Source of the DNA: Ideonella alba
GTDB lineage: Bacteria > Pseudomonadota > Gammaproteobacteria > Burkholderiales > Burkholderiaceae_C
Assembly (NCBI RefSeq): GCF_018069875.1
Contig: NZ_JAGQDF010000003.1
Span: forward strand, 248,001 to 312,000
Direction: 5' to 3'
DNA length: 64,000 bases
Under the pieces are notes generated by a model. The model saw only the letters and a program-made list of their open reading frames with translations. It was not told the origin of the DNA and ran no database searches. The position numbers and the translations under genes were made by a program. Positions 43,584 through 50,737 of this stretch are shown here, in pieces (position 1 is the stretch's first letter; every line of letters starts with the position of its first letter).

Positions 43584-44078
43584 ATGCATTCTTGGACGGC
43601 GCGTCTGCGCCAGGCCTTGCTGGCCCCGCTCAAATGGCTGCTGGCGCTGCTGATCCTGTTCGAGGAATGGGGTTGGGAGCCGCTGCAACGGGTGGTGGCG
43701 GCGATCGGCCGCTGGCCGGGCTTTCGCTGGATCGAGGCCTGGGTGCGCCGGCTGCCGCCCTACGCCGCGCTGGCGCTGTTCGCGCTGCCGGCGCTGGCCC
43801 TGCTGCCGATCAAGCTGGCCGCGCTGTGGGCGATCCGCCAGGGCCATGCGCTGCTGGGGCTGACGGTGATCGTCATCGCCAAGCTGGTGGGCACGGCGAT
43901 CGTCGCGCGGTTGTTCACGCTGACCCATGACGCACTGATGCGCCTGGACTGGTTCGCGCGCCTGTACGGTCGCTGGACCACGTGGAAGGCCGGCCTGCTG
44001 GACTGGGTCCATGCCAGCGCCGCCTGGCGCGCGGCCCAGGCGCTGAAGGCGCGTCTGCGTACGCTGTGGCGCCGCTGA
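43584..44078 (+). CDS. Conserved membrane protein of unknown function
   Basis: A 164-residue protein with hydrophobic segments near 12-27 and two helices near 60-120 (PYAALALFALPALALLPIKLAAL, LLGLTVIVIAKLVGTAIVARLF). The segment LFEEWGWEPLQR is one I recall from similar hypothetical proteins in Burkholderiales. No catalytic motif is visible. It converges with the radical SAM gene, leaving only 3 bases between them. Confidence 0.6.
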   Translation: MHSWTARLRQALLAPLKWLLALLILFEEWGWEPLQRVVAAIGRWPGFRWIEAWVRRLPPYAALALFALPALALLPIKLAALWAIRQGHALLGLTVIVIAKLVGTAIVARLFTLTHDALMRLDWFARLYGRWTTWKAGLLDWVHASAAWRAAQALKARLRTLWRR

Positions 44079-44081
44079 GGT

Positions 44082-45548
44082 TCAGCGCTCCACCCGGCGG
44101 ATCGGCTGCGGCACCACGCGCTCGCGCAGCGCCTGCTGCGCCGCCAGCTCGACGCGGATCTGCGCCAGCAGCGCCTGCTGACCGTCGCGGTAGAACAGGT
44201 TGTGGCTCTCGAAGGGCACCATGCGGCCGTCGGGCAGGGCCATGTGGATGCAGCTCTTCTTCAGCGCGCGGATGTCCAGCGAGCGCGCGTCCATGAACTG
44301 CACGATCAGCACGCGAAAGACGCTGCGGTAGTCCAGCCCCTCGGGCGCGACGATCTGCGGCAGGCAACACATCAGCTCGCTCAGGCAACTCGCCTGCGAT
44401 TCAGGTGAGTGGTTCGTGCTGAAGAGCTTGAAGACCTGGGACTTGAGCGACTCGTCGCGCTCGAAGACGATGGTGTTGCGGCTGGCCTCGACCAGCGTGG
44501 TGGGGTCCAGGAAGCGCGTCAGCGGCTGCAGGCCGCCACCGGGCGTGCGGATCGCGTAGGCCATGGCCAGCGTGTCGGGGTTGCAGGGCACGGGCACCAC
44601 GTCCTTGGCGGTGAACACGCCGCTTTGGTCGACGATGCGCCGGCGCAGCTCGCTGACCGTCAGGCGGTGCTTGGCCGGGTCATAGCCGTCACAGCGGCCG
44701 GCGTCCTGCACCGGCTGCAGCGTCACGCCGCGCACGCAGGGCCAGCCCTGGGCGTGGCGGATGATCTCGCCGATCTCGTCGTCGTTGATACCGCGCTTGA
44801 CGGTGACGACCAGCGTGGTCGACACGCCGGCCGCGTCCAGCGCGCGTAGCGCGTCGTCGCGCACGCGGCGCAGGTCGGCGCCGCGCAGGTCCATCAAGGC
44901 CTCGCGGCGCAGGGAGTCGAACTGCAGGTAGACCTCGAAGCCCGGCGCGTAGCCGGCCAGACGCTCGGCAAAGCCCGGCTCCTGCGCGATGCGGATGCCG
45001 TTGGTGTTGAGCATCAGGTGGCGGATCGGCCGCGCCTTGGCCGCGTCCAGGATGTCCCAGAAGCGCGGGTGCAGCGTGGGCTCGCCGCCGCTGAGCTGCA
45101 CCACGTCGGGCTCGCCCTCGCTGGCCACGGCGGCGTCCAGCATCGCCAGCACCTCGTCGAAGCTGCGGTGGGTGAGCCGCTCAGGCCCGCTGCCGGCGTA
45201 GCAGGTGGGGCAGCGCAGGTTGCAGTGGTCGGTCAGCTCGACGATGGTCAGACAGCTGTGCTGCATGTGGTCGGGACACAGGCCGCAATCGAACGGGCAG
45301 CCGTATTGCATCGGGGTGGCGAAGCGCTCGGGCATCTCCGGCGCCTTCACATACACCTCGCGGCACAGCCGGTAGTAGGCGGCGTCATCGCTCACCAGCA
45401 CGCGCTCGGTGCCATGCGCCGGGCACCACTTGTCCATGAAGACCTGGTCGTCCTTCAGCACGATCTTCGCCTCCACCGGCCGCAGGCAGGTGGTGCAGAC
45501 CGAGCTGGTGGTGTCGTAGAACAGCCAGGGGCGGGTCTTGCGGCTCAT
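44082..45548 (-). CDS. Radical SAM enzyme of the MJ0619/tetraether-lipid-synthase (Tes)-like family
   Basis: A 488-residue protein. Cysteine layout: CTTC at 18-21 with CPAHG at 42-46 (rubredoxin-like knuckle), CPFDCGLC at 84-91 (extra CxxxCxxC), CNLRCPTC at 109-116 (radical SAM cluster), then a CNPDT, a CLSELMCC and a C-terminal KKSCIHMALPDGRMVPF. This order, and the DHCNLRCPTCYAGSG and SGGEPTLHP words, match the MJ0619/Tes group, which joins or methylates unreactive carbon centres in lipids or cofactors. It is the last gene of the eight-gene unit; its start overlaps the preceding stop by 4 bases. The lipid substrate is inferred from neighbours, not proven. Confidence 0.8.
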   Translation of the reverse strand: MSRKTRPWLFYDTTSSVCTTCLRPVEAKIVLKDDQVFMDKWCPAHGTERVLVSDDAAYYRLCREVYVKAPEMPERFATPMQYGCPFDCGLCPDHMQHSCLTIVELTDHCNLRCPTCYAGSGPERLTHRSFDEVLAMLDAAVASEGEPDVVQLSGGEPTLHPRFWDILDAAKARPIRHLMLNTNGIRIAQEPGFAERLAGYAPGFEVYLQFDSLRREALMDLRGADLRRVRDDALRALDAAGVSTTLVVTVKRGINDDEIGEIIRHAQGWPCVRGVTLQPVQDAGRCDGYDPAKHRLTVSELRRRIVDQSGVFTAKDVVPVPCNPDTLAMAYAIRTPGGGLQPLTRFLDPTTLVEASRNTIVFERDESLKSQVFKLFSTNHSPESQASCLSELMCCLPQIVAPEGLDYRSVFRVLIVQFMDARSLDIRALKKSCIHMALPDGRMVPFESHNLFYRDGQQALLAQIRVELAAQQALRERVVPQPIRRVER

Positions 45549-45817
45549 GCGCCTGTCCCGTGCTGGCTGGTGCTGGCGACCCGTTGGCAGGCGCGCACGG
45601 CCCATTGGCAGGCCGCTGCCAGGACCAGGCCGAGCAGGCCGGTCAGCGCCAGCCCTTCGCCGAACGCGTCACGCTGGCCCGGCGGACCACTCAGCGCGGC
45701 GCCCAGACCGAAGACCACGGCCGGGACGCCACACAGCAGGAGAAACGCCATGGCCAGCCGAAGCAGCAGGATCACGGGCCACAGGCCGTTCGTGGTGGCA
45801 GCAGGGGGAGTGTTCAT
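45545..45817 (-). CDS. Small two-helix membrane protein in the radical SAM unit
   Basis: A 90-residue protein with two membrane helices (about 13-45 and 55-75). It shares no motif with known families, apart from the general look of a small membrane adaptor. The stop overlaps the radical SAM start (ATGA), so the two are made together. It may anchor the radical SAM enzyme at the membrane, but that is a guess. Confidence 0.55.
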   Translation of the reverse strand: MNTPPAATTNGLWPVILLLRLAMAFLLLCGVPAVVFGLGAALSGPPGQRDAFGEGLALTGLLGLVLAAACQWAVRACQRVASTSQHGTGA

Positions 45818-45824
45818 CGGGGGC

Positions 45825-46253
45825 TCAGGGTGGGCTGTCCTGCCCTTCGTTGCGGGGGGACGGCGGCGTGGCGGGGGGTGGCGCGGCTGGCGTGAACGGT
45901 GACAGGTCGACATCGTCAGTCTCGGCCGCAGCGGACTGCTGTCGATCGGCGCGCAGCGCCTGCCGCAGCAGCCAGCCGGTGACCATCGCGATCGCCACAC
46001 CAATGCCGCCGACGATCGCGAACATCGCGCCATAGGCCCGCCCTTCGGCGCCATCACCCAGCGAAAACAGGCCGGCCAGCACACCGAAGCCGCCGCACAG
46101 GCCGAACCCGGCGGTGCTGAGCACCAGCAGCGTCAGCCACAGCCCGCGCACAAAGCGCTGGCCGGTGCTGCCACCTCGCCGGGCGCGCTGCATGTAGATC
46201 ACCGCGCCCACCAGCAGCAGCACGATCACCAGCGGGTTGAACAGCAGGCTCAT
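45825..46253 (-). CDS. Membrane protein with GFGLCGG motif (paralogue A)
   Basis: A 142-residue protein with an N-terminal helix, then a helix holding the unusual motif AGFGLCGGFGVLAG, one more helix (GAMFAIVGGIGVAIAMVTGWLL), and a disordered proline-rich tail. The neighbour gene encodes a second protein with the same motif. Its ATG overlaps the stop of that neighbour by 4 bases. No known family; likely part of a small membrane complex with the other genes of the unit. Confidence 0.6.
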   Translation of the reverse strand: MSLLFNPLVIVLLLVGAVIYMQRARRGGSTGQRFVRGLWLTLLVLSTAGFGLCGGFGVLAGLFSLGDGAEGRAYGAMFAIVGGIGVAIAMVTGWLLRQALRADRQQSAAAETDDVDLSPFTPAAPPPATPPSPRNEGQDSPP

Positions 46254-46816
46254 CGGTCCTCCTTGTCGTCAGATCGGAAGGCCCGCACGCCCAGCCACCA
46301 GGCGATCAGCAGGCCGATGGCGCCCAGGCCGATCAGCGGCAGGCCGTCGCCCACGCCCTGCACCAGATCGGAGACGCCCGCCAGCACGCCCATGCCGCCA
46401 CACAGGCCAAAGCCGGCCATCAGCAGCACCAGCCCGCCCATCACCAGGCCACGCCCCAGGCCGCGGATCGCGCGCTCGGGTGTCAGCGGCGCCAGCGTCG
46501 CTTCGGGGTTGGCGCCCAGGCTGCGCTGCCATTGCCAGTCCTGCCACAGGCCCCAGGCACACACGGCCGCGACCAGCAGCTGAGGAGCCTGGCTGGCCAG
46601 CAGCATGGGCCAGGGCACGTTCTGCTGGGCAGCCGACAACGCCCACTGCCACCAGGCCCACAGGCCGTACAGCGGCTGCAGCACCCCCAGCACCAGCACG
46701 GCCCGCGCGGCCAGGCGCCAGCGCGCTCCGGCACCGGCCAGCAGCGCCGGCTGCCGGCGCATCTGGCGCAGCACGGACAGCGCGCCGACCATCAGGATCA
46801 GGACCAGAAAAGACAT
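46250..46816 (-). CDS. Membrane protein with GFGLCGG motif (paralogue B)
   Basis: A 188-residue protein with at least four membrane helices. The segment LLMAGFGLCGGMGVLAGVSDL repeats the motif of the downstream gene product, so the two are paralogues or share a domain. The motif, with one cysteine between glycines, could bind a ligand or pack helices. The gene lies 12 bases after the Lgt-like gene. Function unknown. Confidence 0.6.
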   Translation of the reverse strand: MSFLVLILMVGALSVLRQMRRQPALLAGAGARWRLAARAVLVLGVLQPLYGLWAWWQWALSAAQQNVPWPMLLASQAPQLLVAAVCAWGLWQDWQWQRSLGANPEATLAPLTPERAIRGLGRGLVMGGLVLLMAGFGLCGGMGVLAGVSDLVQGVGDGLPLIGLGAIGLLIAWWLGVRAFRSDDKEDR

Positions 46817-46828
46817 GGGGACGCAGAC

Positions 46829-47578
46829 TCAGGGGGCCGGGGCAGGGCGCTGCCGACCCCACGCGCGCAGCAGCAGCGGTGCGTAGGCCAGCCAGGCCAG
46901 TGCACACACCCACTGGATGCCCGAGAGGCCGCCAGCGTACTCGACGCGCAGCGGCTTGAGGGTGTCGCCGATCAAGCGCCACAGCAGGTAGGCCGACAGG
47001 AACAGCTTGAAGCGCAGGCCCGGCACGGCCGCCCAGCGCGCCTGTCCGCGGTGCAGTAGCGTGCCCAGCAGTGCGAGGAAGACGATCTCGTACAGCGCGC
47101 TGGGATGGCGCGGCACGCCATCACCCAGGTCCACGCCCCAGGGCAGCGCGGTGGGCAGGCCGTAGGTGTCGTCGTGCAGGCCAGCCAGGAAGCAGCCCAC
47201 ACGGCCCAGCACCAGGCCGGCGACGATGGGCGTGACCATCAGGTCGCCGGTGGACGCCCGTTGGCCGGTCAGCGCCTTGGCCACCTCAATGCCGATCAGG
47301 CCGCCCAGCAGGCCGCCGACGATCGACTGCCCCAGCACCAGCGGCCCGCCGGCCCACCAGGCGGCGATCAGGTCGGGCCGCTCGATCGCGAACACCAGCT
47401 TGTTCCCGATGGCGGCGCCCAGCAGCAGGCCGGTGATCAGCGCGAAGCTGCCCGATGCGGTGAGCGCCGACAGCCCGCTGCGCTGCCGGGCGCGCCGGTA
47501 CAGCGCCACGCCCAGCGCGATGCCGCCGTACTCGAACAGCGCATGGGTCAGCGCGGCGATGGCCGGGTCAGCGATCAT
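46829..47578 (-). CDS. Lgt-like membrane diacylglyceryl transferase family protein
   Basis: A 249-residue polytopic protein. GQSIVGGLLGGLIGIEVAK, VLGRVGCFLAGLHDDTYGLPT and PRHPSALYEIVF match the order of conserved Lgt motifs, which transfer diacylglycerol from phosphatidylglycerol to a lipoprotein cysteine. The usual N in the GRxGNFxNGE motif is replaced by C and the GE is missing, so it is probably a divergent family member and not the housekeeping Lgt. It overlaps the upstream acyltransferase gene by 4 bases and lies in the radical SAM unit, hinting that its substrate is a modified lipid. Confidence 0.7.
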   Translation of the reverse strand: MIADPAIAALTHALFEYGGIALGVALYRRARQRSGLSALTASGSFALITGLLLGAAIGNKLVFAIERPDLIAAWWAGGPLVLGQSIVGGLLGGLIGIEVAKALTGQRASTGDLMVTPIVAGLVLGRVGCFLAGLHDDTYGLPTALPWGVDLGDGVPRHPSALYEIVFLALLGTLLHRGQARWAAVPGLRFKLFLSAYLLWRLIGDTLKPLRVEYAGGLSGIQWVCALAWLAYAPLLLRAWGRQRPAPAP

Positions 47579-49482
47579 GCGGCGCCGTCGAGCAGTGCCT
47601 GCACCTGGTTGCGCAGGGTGTCGGGCGTCACCGCCTCGGGCGCCATGGCGGGTGCCGCCACCAGGCCCACCCGGTTGAACAGGCCGCGACGCAGCGGCTT
47701 GACCATCGCGGTGCCGCCCTCCACGCGCGAGAAAAACGAGCCCCACAGGTTGGTCAGCGCCATCGGCACCACCGGCACCGCGCGGCGCTCCAGGATCTTC
47801 ATCAGGCCGCCCTTGAAGGGCTGCAGCTGGCCGTCGCGGGTGATGCCGCCCTCGGGGAAGATGCCCAGCAGGTCGCCCTCGGCCAGCACCTGGTCGGCCG
47901 CGGCCAGCGCGGCCTCGTAGGCGGCCGGGTCCTCGCTGCGCGGCGCCACCGGAATGGCCTTGGCCAGGCGGAACAGCCAGCCCAGCACCGGCACCTGGAA
48001 GATGCGGTGGTCCATCAGGAAGCGGATCGGTCGCGGGCTGGCGGCCATCAGCAGCACCGCGTCAATGAAGCTCACGTGGTTGCAGGCCAGGATCGCCGGG
48101 CCCTGGGCCGGGATGTGCTCGTCGCCCTGCACGCGGAAGCGGTAGATGAAGTGGCTGAGCACCCAGGCCACGAAGCGCAGCAGGTACTCGGGCACCAGCA
48201 GGAACACATAGGCCGCCACCAGCGCATTGGCCAGCGCCAGCAGGCCGAAGACCTGCGGGATGCTGAAGCCCGCCTTCAGCAGCATGCCGGCGCCCAGCGC
48301 GCTGACGATCATGAAGATCGCGTTGAGGATGTTGTTGGCGGCGATGATGCGCGCGCGGTGGCTGGCCGGCGAGCGCAGCTGGATCAGCGCGTACATCGGC
48401 ACGCTGTACAGGCCGGCGCTGAACGACAGCGCGAACAGATCGGCCAGCACGCGCCAGTTCGCGCCCACCCCCAGGAAGGCGCCCAGCCCCAGGCGATCGC
48501 TGGCGGGCACCTGCGACGCCGCCCACCACAGGTCGGCGGCGAACACGCTCATGCCGATCGCGCCCAGCGGCACCAGGCCGATCTCCACATGGCGGCGGCT
48601 GAAGGTCTCGCACATCAGCGAGCCCAGGCCCACGCCCACCGAGAACACCACCAGCAGCAGCGAGGCCACATGCTCGTCGCCATGCAGCACGTCCTTGGCG
48701 AAGCTGGGGAACTGGCCCAGGAAGACCGCGCCGAAGAACCACATCCACGAGATGCCCAGCAGCGAGCGGAAGACCACCAGGTTCTGGTGCGCCAGCCGCA
48801 GGTTGCGCCAGGTCTCGGTGACCGGGTTCCAGTTGATGACCAGGTTCGGCGAGGTGGACGGCGTGGGCGGGATGCGCTGCGCCACCGCGCGGCCGATGAC
48901 CGCCAGCGTCAGCGCCGTCCAGGCCACCGCCTCGGCGCCGGTGAGCCACCAGCCCTCGGGGAGCGCGATCAGCACGCCGCCCACCACATTGCCCAGCAGG
49001 ATGGCCACGAAGGTGCCCATCTCGACCATGCCGTTGCCGCCGGTGATCTCGCGCTCGTCCAGGTGCTGCGGCAGGTAGGCGTACTTGACCGGGCCGAACA
49101 GCGTGCTGTGCAGGCCCAGGCCGAAGATGCAGCCCAGCAGCAGCGATGGCCATTGCAGGTGCAGCCCCACCATCGCCGCCACCATGATGGCGATCTCCAG
49201 GCTCTTGACCAGCTGCGCCAGGCGCGCCTTGTCGTACTTGTCGGCCAGCTGCCCAGAGGTGGCCGAGAACAGCAGGAAGGGCAGGATGAAGACCGCGCCG
49301 ATCACCAGGCCTGCCAGCTCGGGGGGCAGCCAGGCCACCTCGATGCGGTAGGTCACCAGCATCGTGAAGGCGAACTTGAAGACGTTGTCATTCGCGGCGC
49401 CCAGGAATTGCGTCCAGAAGAAGGGCGCAAAGCGGCGCTGGCGCAGCAGGGCGAACTGGTTGGGGTGCGGCTGGGCGCTCAC
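47575..49482 (-). CDS. Fused lysophospholipid transporter (MFS) and acyltransferase (PlsC-like)
   Basis: A 635-residue fusion. Residues about 1-410 are a 12-helix MFS transporter with the LplT-like QFLGAANDNVFKFAFTMLV opening. Residues about 430-625 are a PlsC/LPLAT domain with CNHVSFIDAVLL (H-x4-D) and GIFPEGGITRDG. Such LplT-Aas fusions flip lysophospholipids and re-acylate them. It starts at GTG 49482 with a strong AGGAGGAG upstream. It overlaps the Lgt-like gene. In this unit it would supply remodelled phospholipid. The ligase part of Aas is absent. Confidence 0.85.
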   Translation of the reverse strand: MSAQPHPNQFALLRQRRFAPFFWTQFLGAANDNVFKFAFTMLVTYRIEVAWLPPELAGLVIGAVFILPFLLFSATSGQLADKYDKARLAQLVKSLEIAIMVAAMVGLHLQWPSLLLGCIFGLGLHSTLFGPVKYAYLPQHLDEREITGGNGMVEMGTFVAILLGNVVGGVLIALPEGWWLTGAEAVAWTALTLAVIGRAVAQRIPPTPSTSPNLVINWNPVTETWRNLRLAHQNLVVFRSLLGISWMWFFGAVFLGQFPSFAKDVLHGDEHVASLLLVVFSVGVGLGSLMCETFSRRHVEIGLVPLGAIGMSVFAADLWWAASQVPASDRLGLGAFLGVGANWRVLADLFALSFSAGLYSVPMYALIQLRSPASHRARIIAANNILNAIFMIVSALGAGMLLKAGFSIPQVFGLLALANALVAAYVFLLVPEYLLRFVAWVLSHFIYRFRVQGDEHIPAQGPAILACNHVSFIDAVLLMAASPRPIRFLMDHRIFQVPVLGWLFRLAKAIPVAPRSEDPAAYEAALAAADQVLAEGDLLGIFPEGGITRDGQLQPFKGGLMKILERRAVPVVPMALTNLWGSFFSRVEGGTAMVKPLRRGLFNRVGLVAAPAMAPEAVTPDTLRNQVQALLDGAA

Positions 49483-49526
49483 GCGGGGCTCCTCCTGAGG
49501 GTGTCTGGACTGTAGCGGCTTGGTGG

Positions 49527-50321
49527 TCAGCGAACGGTCTGCACCGGGCCCCCCAGTTGGGCGATCTGCAGCCAGTCGACAACGGCGTCGACGGTGGTGG
49601 TCTCGATGCGGTCGGCGAAGCGCTTGTCGTTGGGGTGGTCGTCGAAGGCGATGTTGGCGCGGGTGGCGCGCGCGCCCAGGCGGGTCAGCGGGCCCAGGTG
49701 CAGCACCGTCGGCGTGAAGCCGCGCAACTGCAGCCAGGCCTGGGCGCGCGGGCGGTCGCTGGCGCCCTCGTCGGCGGCGCCGGCCAGGGTCTCGATCGCC
49801 CACTGGTTGCTCTGCTGGTAGCGCGTGGACCAGGGGTAGGCCAGCATGTTGTAGCGCGGCTCGTGCCAGCGCAGCACGCGCGCATCGTCCTGCAGCAGCG
49901 GCAGCAGGCGGGTCTGCAGCTCGGGCGTGGGCACCAGGTACGCGGCCTCGTAGCGCCACGGCCGGTCCAGGAAGAACTCGGCCAGACCCTGGCGATAGAC
50001 CTGGGCCTGGTCGCTGCCGCAGTGGTTGAGCTTGTGCACCACGCGCCAGCTGGCCTGGCCGCTGGCATCGGTCTGGCGGTAGGCCCAGCCCATGTGCGAC
50101 CAGCGCAGGCGGTAGGCGCTGAGGTCCTGGCCGGCGCGGGCCAGCAGGACCACGCTGGCGCCGCTGGCCTGCAGCGCGGCCTCGGTGCGCACGGCCAGGG
50201 CCAGACCCTGCTGGACCTCGGCCACCGTGGGCGGCTCGGGCTCGCAGGGGCGGCCCGCCCGGGCGGTGGGTCCTGTCAGCAGCGCCACGACCAGCGCAGC
50301 GGTGCGCCAGAGGGCGCTCAT
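49527..50321 (-). CDS. Secreted DUF2145 family protein
   Basis: A 264-residue protein with a signal peptide (about 5-22) and a mature domain containing RWSHMGWAYR, WRVVHKLNHCGSDQ and YNMLAYPWSTRYQQSNQW, the signature words of DUF2145, a family of unknown function found near other envelope genes. It may be a periplasmic papain-like or NlpC-like fold, since the H and C words are spaced that way, but no proof. The start overlaps the preceding gene stop (ATGA). It lies 44 bases upstream of the lipid transporter gene. Confidence 0.75.
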   Translation of the reverse strand: MSALWRTAALVVALLTGPTARAGRPCEPEPPTVAEVQQGLALAVRTEAALQASGASVVLLARAGQDLSAYRLRWSHMGWAYRQTDASGQASWRVVHKLNHCGSDQAQVYRQGLAEFFLDRPWRYEAAYLVPTPELQTRLLPLLQDDARVLRWHEPRYNMLAYPWSTRYQQSNQWAIETLAGAADEGASDRPRAQAWLQLRGFTPTVLHLGPLTRLGARATRANIAFDDHPNDKRFADRIETTTVDAVVDWLQIAQLGGPVQTVR

Positions 50322-50737
50322 CGCGACAGCGGCTGGTGGTGGAACAGGCGGGCGTGCGCCGCATCGGGCAGCACCGCCACGGCGCGGCTGCCGTCCACCA
50401 GCAGCCAGCCGGCCTCGACCGCCACCAGCGTCAGCGCCTGGCCCACCGCCAGCGCGCTGGCGCCGGCGGCGGTCAGCACGATGCGCGCGCCGTCGGCGCT
50501 GCGCTCGAGCACCCACACGCTGCCCTCGGCGGTCACCTCCACGGCCTTCACCAGCAGCACGCCGGTGCCCACCGACAGCAGCAGCGGCGCGCCCACCAGG
50601 GTCAGCACCGGCAGCGCCGACAGTGCCGCCGAGGCCTCGGACGGGCCGCCGCGGTGGGCGCGCACCGGGGTGGCCGACAGCACGGTCAGCAGGGCCAGGG
50701 TCAGCGGCAGCAGGGGCCGCAGAGGGCGACGGGCCAT
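50318..50737 (-). CDS. Secreted small protein paired with DUF2145
   Basis: A 139-residue protein with a signal peptide (cleavage near RAHR) and hydrophobic beta segments (LPVLTLVGAPLLLSVGTGVLLVKAVEV). No family is recognised. It is the first gene of the minus-strand block that runs through DUF2145, the lipid enzymes and the radical SAM gene, and it is divergent from the XRE regulator. Its stop overlaps the DUF2145 start. Confidence 0.6.
   Translation of the reverse strand: MARRPLRPLLPLTLALLTVLSATPVRAHRGGPSEASAALSALPVLTLVGAPLLLSVGTGVLLVKAVEVTAEGSVWVLERSADGARIVLTAAGASALAVGQALTLVAVEAGWLLVDGSRAVAVLPDAAHARLFHHQPLSR

Follow-up and report, generated by a model that had tools for sequence, protein, structure and literature searches.

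The window analysed here, 64,000 nucleotides from Ideonella alba, carries at positions 44082..50737 eight consecutive minus-strand genes, lettered A to H in 5' to 3' order with A first. Two of these genes, D, coding for a membrane protein of the Lgt fold, and H, coding for a radical SAM protein of a Tes-like clade, belong together: their pairing is near-obligate across phyla in the genome samples compared and, as far as searched, undescribed so far. The folds of D and H point to phosphatidylglycerol-type lipids as substrate, and we give about equal weight to acceptance and rejection of the proposal that the two proteins form a dedicated two-component system modifying such lipids, with small membrane proteins such as E, F and G as frequent accessories.

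Co-occurrence was counted at thresholds of at least 550 bits for H and at least 230 bits for D. In the sample of the order (300 genomes) H was found in 10 genomes, D in 9 and both in 9; the corresponding figures were 10, 11 and 10 in the Acidobacteriota sample (149 genomes) and 2, 2 and 2 in the Bacillota sample (149 genomes). Altogether, H was present in 22 of 598 genomes, D in 22 and both in 21, with a Fisher p of 1.7e-36, or of 1.0e-27 without six genomes known as query rows or centres, values that are uncorrected for kinship and come from samples in which other query rows may also be present. In the single H-only genome (G236) a contig end lies 480 bases from H on the side of D, and a short D piece elsewhere in that genome would escape the E-value used (1e-35); in the single D-only genome (G334) the D match stops 22 bases before the contig end, on the side of H.

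The same association was observed at the level of gene neighbourhood. H matched in 11 of the 300 genomes of the order sample, 10 times strongly (~590 bits or more), the window's own genome included. Among the nine strong loci from other genomes, D lies directly upstream of H in seven and about 0.8 kb upstream in L017, and the ninth is cut short by a contig end 480 bases upstream of H. A scan of named records retrieved at least 503 H relatives, the best 80 of which, 55–84% identical to H across phyla, were used for neighbourhood counts; their labels include Pseudomonadota, Acidobacteriota, Bacillota, Bacteroidota, Planctomycetota, Myxococcota and others, although labels of metagenome-assembled genomes may err. 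D (at least 190 bits) was found upstream and on the same strand in 69 of these 80 loci, at a distance of 50 bases or less in 47 and of 51–400 bases in 7 (median -3, measured on open reading frames extended to the first start codon). Five further loci hold a more distant D-like gene nearby (114–152 bits), divergent in three and downstream in two; since all five D-like proteins keep the ExxK pair described below, and their alignments show an Arg in the position of R126 as well as a late Arg, the linkage has outlived changes of order and strand. No D was detected at the remaining six loci, three of which (L035, L091 and L105) end at contig edges; the L105 genome holds a partial D at the edge of another contig. 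Among 20 named carriers, D reached at least 293 bits in 19, the twentieth being the broken L105 copy (169.5 bits), and carriers of the pair include named Paenibacillus, Brevibacillus and Pelomonas isolates. The initial annotation had proposed a search for the radical SAM gene with its Lgt-like neighbour in other bacteria, and that association is strongly borne out.

No D match was found at 36 loci of other Tes/TrsS-like relatives, most of them with flanks of 1.5 kb and two of which (L014 and L015) lie inside L025. L025 (G152), from the same order, holds, without D, a pair of distant H relatives (33% and 31% identical) separated by about 10 kb. A 38% identical H relative, also without D, is located on a Mycolicibacterium vanbaalenii plasmid (L215, 7971–9554), near genes for a methyltransferase, CcdA and a disulfide oxidoreductase. 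A single in-frame TGA occurs inside some D or H matches (G361:C55:27327-27998; H of G690 and G691), and may be a natural stop read through at the gene end.

The eight genes of the window are the following:
A, 50318..50737, minus strand: small protein of 139 amino acids with a signal-peptide-like start and no family match above cut-off; judged outside the module.
B, 49527..50321, minus strand: 264 amino acids, DUF2145 (1.1e-80); judged outside the module.
C, 47575..49482, minus strand: 635 amino acids, LplT-like MFS and PlsC fusion, with a GTG start after AGGAGG; judged outside the module.
D, 46829..47578, minus strand: 249 amino acids, Lgt-fold membrane protein; module core.
E, 46250..46816, minus strand: 188 amino acids, small membrane protein with a GFGLCGG motif; likely accessory.
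F, 45825..46253, minus strand: 142 amino acids, small membrane protein with a GFGLCGG motif; likely accessory.
G, 45545..45817, minus strand: 90 amino acids, small membrane protein with FLLLCGV; possible accessory.
H, 44082..45548, minus strand: 488 amino acids, Tes-like radical SAM protein; module core.

The initial annotation had correctly described eight minus-strand genes, but had counted five overlapping junctions where there are four, of 4 bases each (A/B, C/D, E/F and G/H), the other three being gaps of 44 (B/C), 12 (D/E) and 7 bases (F/G). Its description of C as an MFS–PlsC fusion agrees with the family scans, which matched both parts, and E, F and G are small and hydrophobic as it had stated; like A, these three gave no family match above cut-off.

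On its sequence, D is classed as an Lgt-fold paralog and not as Lgt. It matches Pfam PF01790 (LGT) with 76.3 bits (gathering cut-off 24.9), stays at 27.9 bits with the NCBIfam lgt equivalog TIGR00544 (cut-off 118.9) and has the fold of Lgt (5azb, 5azc), so that its earlier designation as Lgt-like stands. With Lgt it shares the R143/R239/Y235/E243/R246 network and the RHPxxLYE motif, Arg143 and Arg239 being kept as R126 and R201 in all of the 64 rows aligned (out of 70 available D rows). Unlike Lgt, D has V87 at the position of His103 (60 V and 4 L), that is, neither His nor one of the variants Tyr, Trp and Phe allowed there according to the available text of PMC13251419; it also has His for Tyr26 (H12, His in 62/64), Cys for Asn146 and mostly Leu for Glu151. 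For comparison, 15 presumed ordinary Lgt rows (two Lgt fragments, including that of the window's own genome, fell below the length cut) show 9 His, 6 Tyr and no Val or Leu at position 103. Thus, the lipid-pocket arginine network is kept in D and the protein-acceptor side is changed. A further difference is the invariant pair E98-x-x-K101, located near where the third long helix probably ends on the cytoplasmic side. By description only, a similar case is MSMEG_5408, a second Lgt homolog of Mycobacterium smegmatis, for which Y26H and N146C, as in D, are reported in the accessible part of PMC13251419. The window's own genome encodes a separate strong Lgt (257.6 bits) besides D, and a short third match to LGT, at 32.8 bits still over the Pfam cut-off, lies at C30:226378-226707 (L003), about 21 kb before the window.

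H matches the family models for radical SAM and for an N-terminal zinc ribbon. The two CX3CX2C sites (C84/C88/C91 and C109/C113/C116) and the CX2CX20CX2H knuckle (C18/C21/C42/H45) named in the initial annotation are present. In an alignment of 62 of the 81 available H rows, the cysteines 18, 21, 42, 84, 88, 91, 99, 109, 113, 116, 322, 394, 395 and 433 are found in 62/62, among them the three of the rubredoxin motif (H45 in 61/62), which has the form described for Tes in the text available of PMC9433317, those of the N-terminal auxiliary site, accompanied by H94 and H97 as candidate ligands (both in 62/62), and those of the radical SAM site. All three elements, together with a C-terminal CIH motif and the fold over most of the length, are shared with Tes/GDGT-MAS (MJ0619; 7tol, 7tom). 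The predicted model of H matches 7tom/7tol over residues 7–457, agreeing as a whole-protein fold, with about 29–30% identity over the structural alignment, which upholds the earlier comparison with Tes as one of structural relatives; in sequence, H matches Tes with a phmmer E-value of 4.2e-56.

H nevertheless lies outside Tes proper. With the NCBIfam Tes model NF045702 it scores 250.5 bits, under the cut-off of 450, whereas 3 of 10 survey relatives scanned reach 554–646 bits; its top NCBIfam score, 305.5 bits over residues 13–458, is with the TrsS radical SAM (seleno)protein model NF045646, yet again below the cut-off (490), and two further proteins of the H clade behave alike (L106, 318.7 bits; L067, 337.1 bits). 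In a tree built by a quick method, with long branches flagged and a root for drawing only, a 75-row H clade stands apart from a 22-row Tes clade (SH-aLRT 100 for both). Therefore, of the family assignment made at first, membership of the wider Tes/TrsS-like group holds and placement within the Tes clade does not, and from sequence comparison H is assigned to a Tes-like clade, not to Tes. Presence of D is a further difference, since neither the Tes-like nor the TrsS-like loci examined have it alongside.

A mechanism consistent with these features can be outlined. D, in the membrane, would use R126, Y197, R201, D205 and K208 to bind or activate the diacylglyceryl moiety of phosphatidylglycerol, and may contact H through the ExxK pair; a putative hydrophobic channel of H would accept an acyl tail, whose unactivated carbon would lose a hydrogen to the 5'-deoxyadenosyl radical and would then be joined or otherwise altered with the help of the C-terminal cluster, as in Tes. 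Radical chemistry on acyl chains by H appears about equally probable and improbable; its likeliest sub-case, carbon–carbon coupling leading to a cross-linked or membrane-spanning ester lipid, is put forward more tentatively, its probability being about one third. Acyl-chain methylation, also suggested at first, found no support in this analysis.

Several observations weigh against the proposed lipid modification by a D-H system. The positions of Tes Cys438, Met439 and Tyr459, mapped onto H through the phmmer alignment, are occupied by I415, V416 and M436: H thus has Ile in place of Cys at the first, and in the 62 rows the second is Met in 36 and Val in 26, and the third is Ile in 45, Phe in 9, Met in 6 and Leu in 2, never Tyr. 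According to the text available of PMC9433317, Met439 and Tyr459 are completely conserved in 1000 archaeal homologs. Because the equivalents of Cys438, Tyr459 and in part Met439 are missing, the C-terminal cluster of H is probably built differently from that of Tes. Moreover, residues 353–369 and 390–400 of the model, where a second lipid pocket would be judged, fall below 50 in predicted local distance difference test (pLDDT) score, and lipid binding by H is thus putative only. The active site of Lgt is believed to lie on the periplasmic side, whereas H is presumably cytosolic. As to the pairing, 15 of the 69 loci have a D-to-H gap above 400 bases (at most 1.9 kb), D is absent from three of the 80 loci with room to spare (L048, L077 and L089), and a D-like match of intermediate strength (119.6 bits) occurs without H in a genome of the Bacillota sample (G572).

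Small membrane proteins accompany the pair in many loci. In the window F aligns with the C-terminal half of E, and G is 82% identical in one genus relative. For the counts on small proteins and on the 86 clustered loci, the distant L025 and L042, L053 and L054, which duplicate L018, L020 and L021 by contig, were omitted. An iterated profile built on E and F plus one relative picked out 15 of 16,695 open reading frames (ORFs), in 13 loci (E-value at most 0.001); every one lies upstream of D on the strand of H, within about 1 kb. A second type occurs within about 1.6 kb of the H centre, mostly just downstream, in 17 loci that carry Bacillota, Acidobacteriota or Planctomycetota labels. ORFs of 45–200 amino acids with at least two hydrophobic stretches, one of them holding a Cys followed by a small residue (CG-type), made up 32 of the 729 ORFs near D-H on the same strand, 11 of the 3175 farther away on that strand and 1 of the 733 nearby on the opposite strand (Fisher 1.9e-15 and 2.7e-9 for near same-strand against the two others, respectively, p-values that are optimistic because the motif was picked after the loci had been seen), and several loci hold two or three. 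When a gene passing at least one of the three criteria is counted, 47 of the 86 loci have one and 39 have none. The plasmid pPP1 of Persicobacter psychrovividus carries D (266 bits) and H (772 bits), and directly behind H a 69-codon ORF with GTGICGS near its end, which fits the prediction and was found afterwards.

Alternatively, the substrate of H could be something other than a lipid, for instance a cofactor or a peptide, with D only anchoring H to the membrane or exporting the product. The higher score of H with TrsS than with Tes, both under cut-off, agrees with this, and no function reported for TrsS was found in the literature searched, as far as its text was available. The lipid-pocket arginines, invariant in D, go beyond the needs of an anchor, and the identity of H across phyla is more readily reconciled with a common substrate, small or lipid, than with variable peptides; we consider this alternative unlikely, though the least unlikely of those weighed.

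Slightly less probable is protein lipidation, with D moving diacylglyceryl from phosphatidylglycerol to the intramembrane Cys-Gly of the small proteins, or to its own Cys129, and H modifying the adduct. It would account for the donor-side arginines of D and the loss of the His103 proposed for the acceptor side, for the CG-type enrichment beside D-H and for C129, found in 64/64 D rows. The Cys context does not, however, resemble the lipobox consensus, the motif was chosen post hoc, 39 of the 86 loci have no such small-protein gene, and a Cys at Lgt position 146 is also seen in 4 of the 15 presumed ordinary Lgt rows and in the accessible part of PMC13251419. A combined form, improbable on our estimate, would have the repurposed Lgt put diacylglyceryl on the intramembrane Cys of the small membrane proteins and the Tes-like enzyme cross-link the tails, giving protein-anchored joined lipids, widespread and in ordinary aerobes.

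The initial annotation had treated all eight genes as one unit, a view that is largely refuted as regards a conserved lysophospholipid or lipoprotein remodelling unit and that we regard as improbable. Only D and H recur together across phyla, whereas C homologs occur without H in the genus (C in 16/16 genomes, H in 7/16), and the acyltransferase fusion is therefore weak evidence on the function of the module. In the nine H-less genomes the C match covers the whole fusion in five and the MFS half only in four; in the seven with H it covers the whole fusion in six and runs from residue 220 to the contig edge in one. It is thus the PlsC half that varies, not the gene alone, and its presence in 7/7 genomes with H and 5/9 without speaks for the unit. 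In the H-less L203–L206 (G687, G685, G681 and G680) the MFS half only of the LplT–PlsC fusion stands at the matching place. Seven fetched H-less genus stretches gave no match to D, E, F, G or H; A, B and C are kept in order in two of them (L207 and L209), C being directly followed in L207 by argininosuccinate synthase. As C, and in two stretches A-B-C, persist without D-H, D-H is best seen as an accessory module behind an older A-B-C block.

All eight genes are in order in the H-bearing genus relative L186, where an additional E-like stretch separates C from D. Of the 86 loci, 13 have C upstream of D; their record labels are nearly all beta-proteobacterial, and in six of them a protein of about 700 amino acids that combines acyltransferase and AMP-binding domains is encoded further upstream (domains checked in L034 only). 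Since these loci belong to several families, some functional tie between C and D-H is possible; no C match was found near H in the nine fetched strong loci of the order, one of which spans just 5.4 kb. DUF2145 was seen, among the compared loci, only in the genus relatives L186 and L190 and, besides these, in L028–L032. DUF2145 was rejected as the identity of a six-locus upstream family, whose L030 member Pfam makes an amidohydrolase.

That D is a second working prolipoprotein Lgt beside an unrelated H is very improbable: the Pfam LGT match, and the Cys146 and non-His103 variants of some Lgts, would allow it, but the pairing survives changes of gene order and strand, Val or Leu at position 103 is absent from the Lgt rows, the genome has its separate Lgt, and a further LGT-type match, never above 88 bits, is present in 18 of the 20 named carriers.

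Returning to the proposed D-H lipid-modifying system, no description of the pair was found, by title and abstract opening, among the literature matches listed, a search outside which most subscription papers and preprints lie, and "diacylglyceryl transferase" and "tetraether" occurred together, within that literature as far as accessible, only in an archaeal review. The bacterial membrane-spanning lipid synthase Mss, held to join fatty-acid tails, can be set beside H by description only (PMC13274423 and PMC11868695, accessible text); "lgt" and "prolipoprotein" are absent from the main text of PMC13274423 and "diacylglyceryl" from that of PMC11868695. In the available portions of the respective papers, Lloyd et al. 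noted bacterial Tes homologs of unknown role (PMC9433317), Zeng et al. counted 456 and suggested branched tetraether synthesis (PMC8941075), and bacterial Tes homologs are proposed as makers of branched tetraethers, lipids used as climate proxies (PMC8941075, PMC11868695). With its similarity to Tes, H could pass homolog filters of the kind used in PMC8941075 and PMC11868695 (their BLAST was not repeated); as it belongs to a separate clade tied to D, counts of Tes homologs may mix different enzymes. If tail-to-tail coupling is true, cross-linked ester lipids would be far commoner than thought; otherwise a new reaction of the Tes fold is to be expected. Occurrence of the pair in named Paenibacillus, Brevibacillus and Pelomonas isolates makes the question open to direct bench work.

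In the Acidobacteriota sample, nothing above 417 bits was matched in 75 of the 85 genomes with a match; many of these weaker radical SAM relatives are ORFs of 600–860 amino acids at about 130–157 bits, and they could include the tail-coupling enzymes of that phylum. Finally, a 164-amino-acid membrane protein is encoded at 43584-44078 of the window, on the plus strand and convergent with H; it is 55–60% identical beside H in L028–L030 and is also present close to C in L207, L212 and L213, three members of the genus that lack H.

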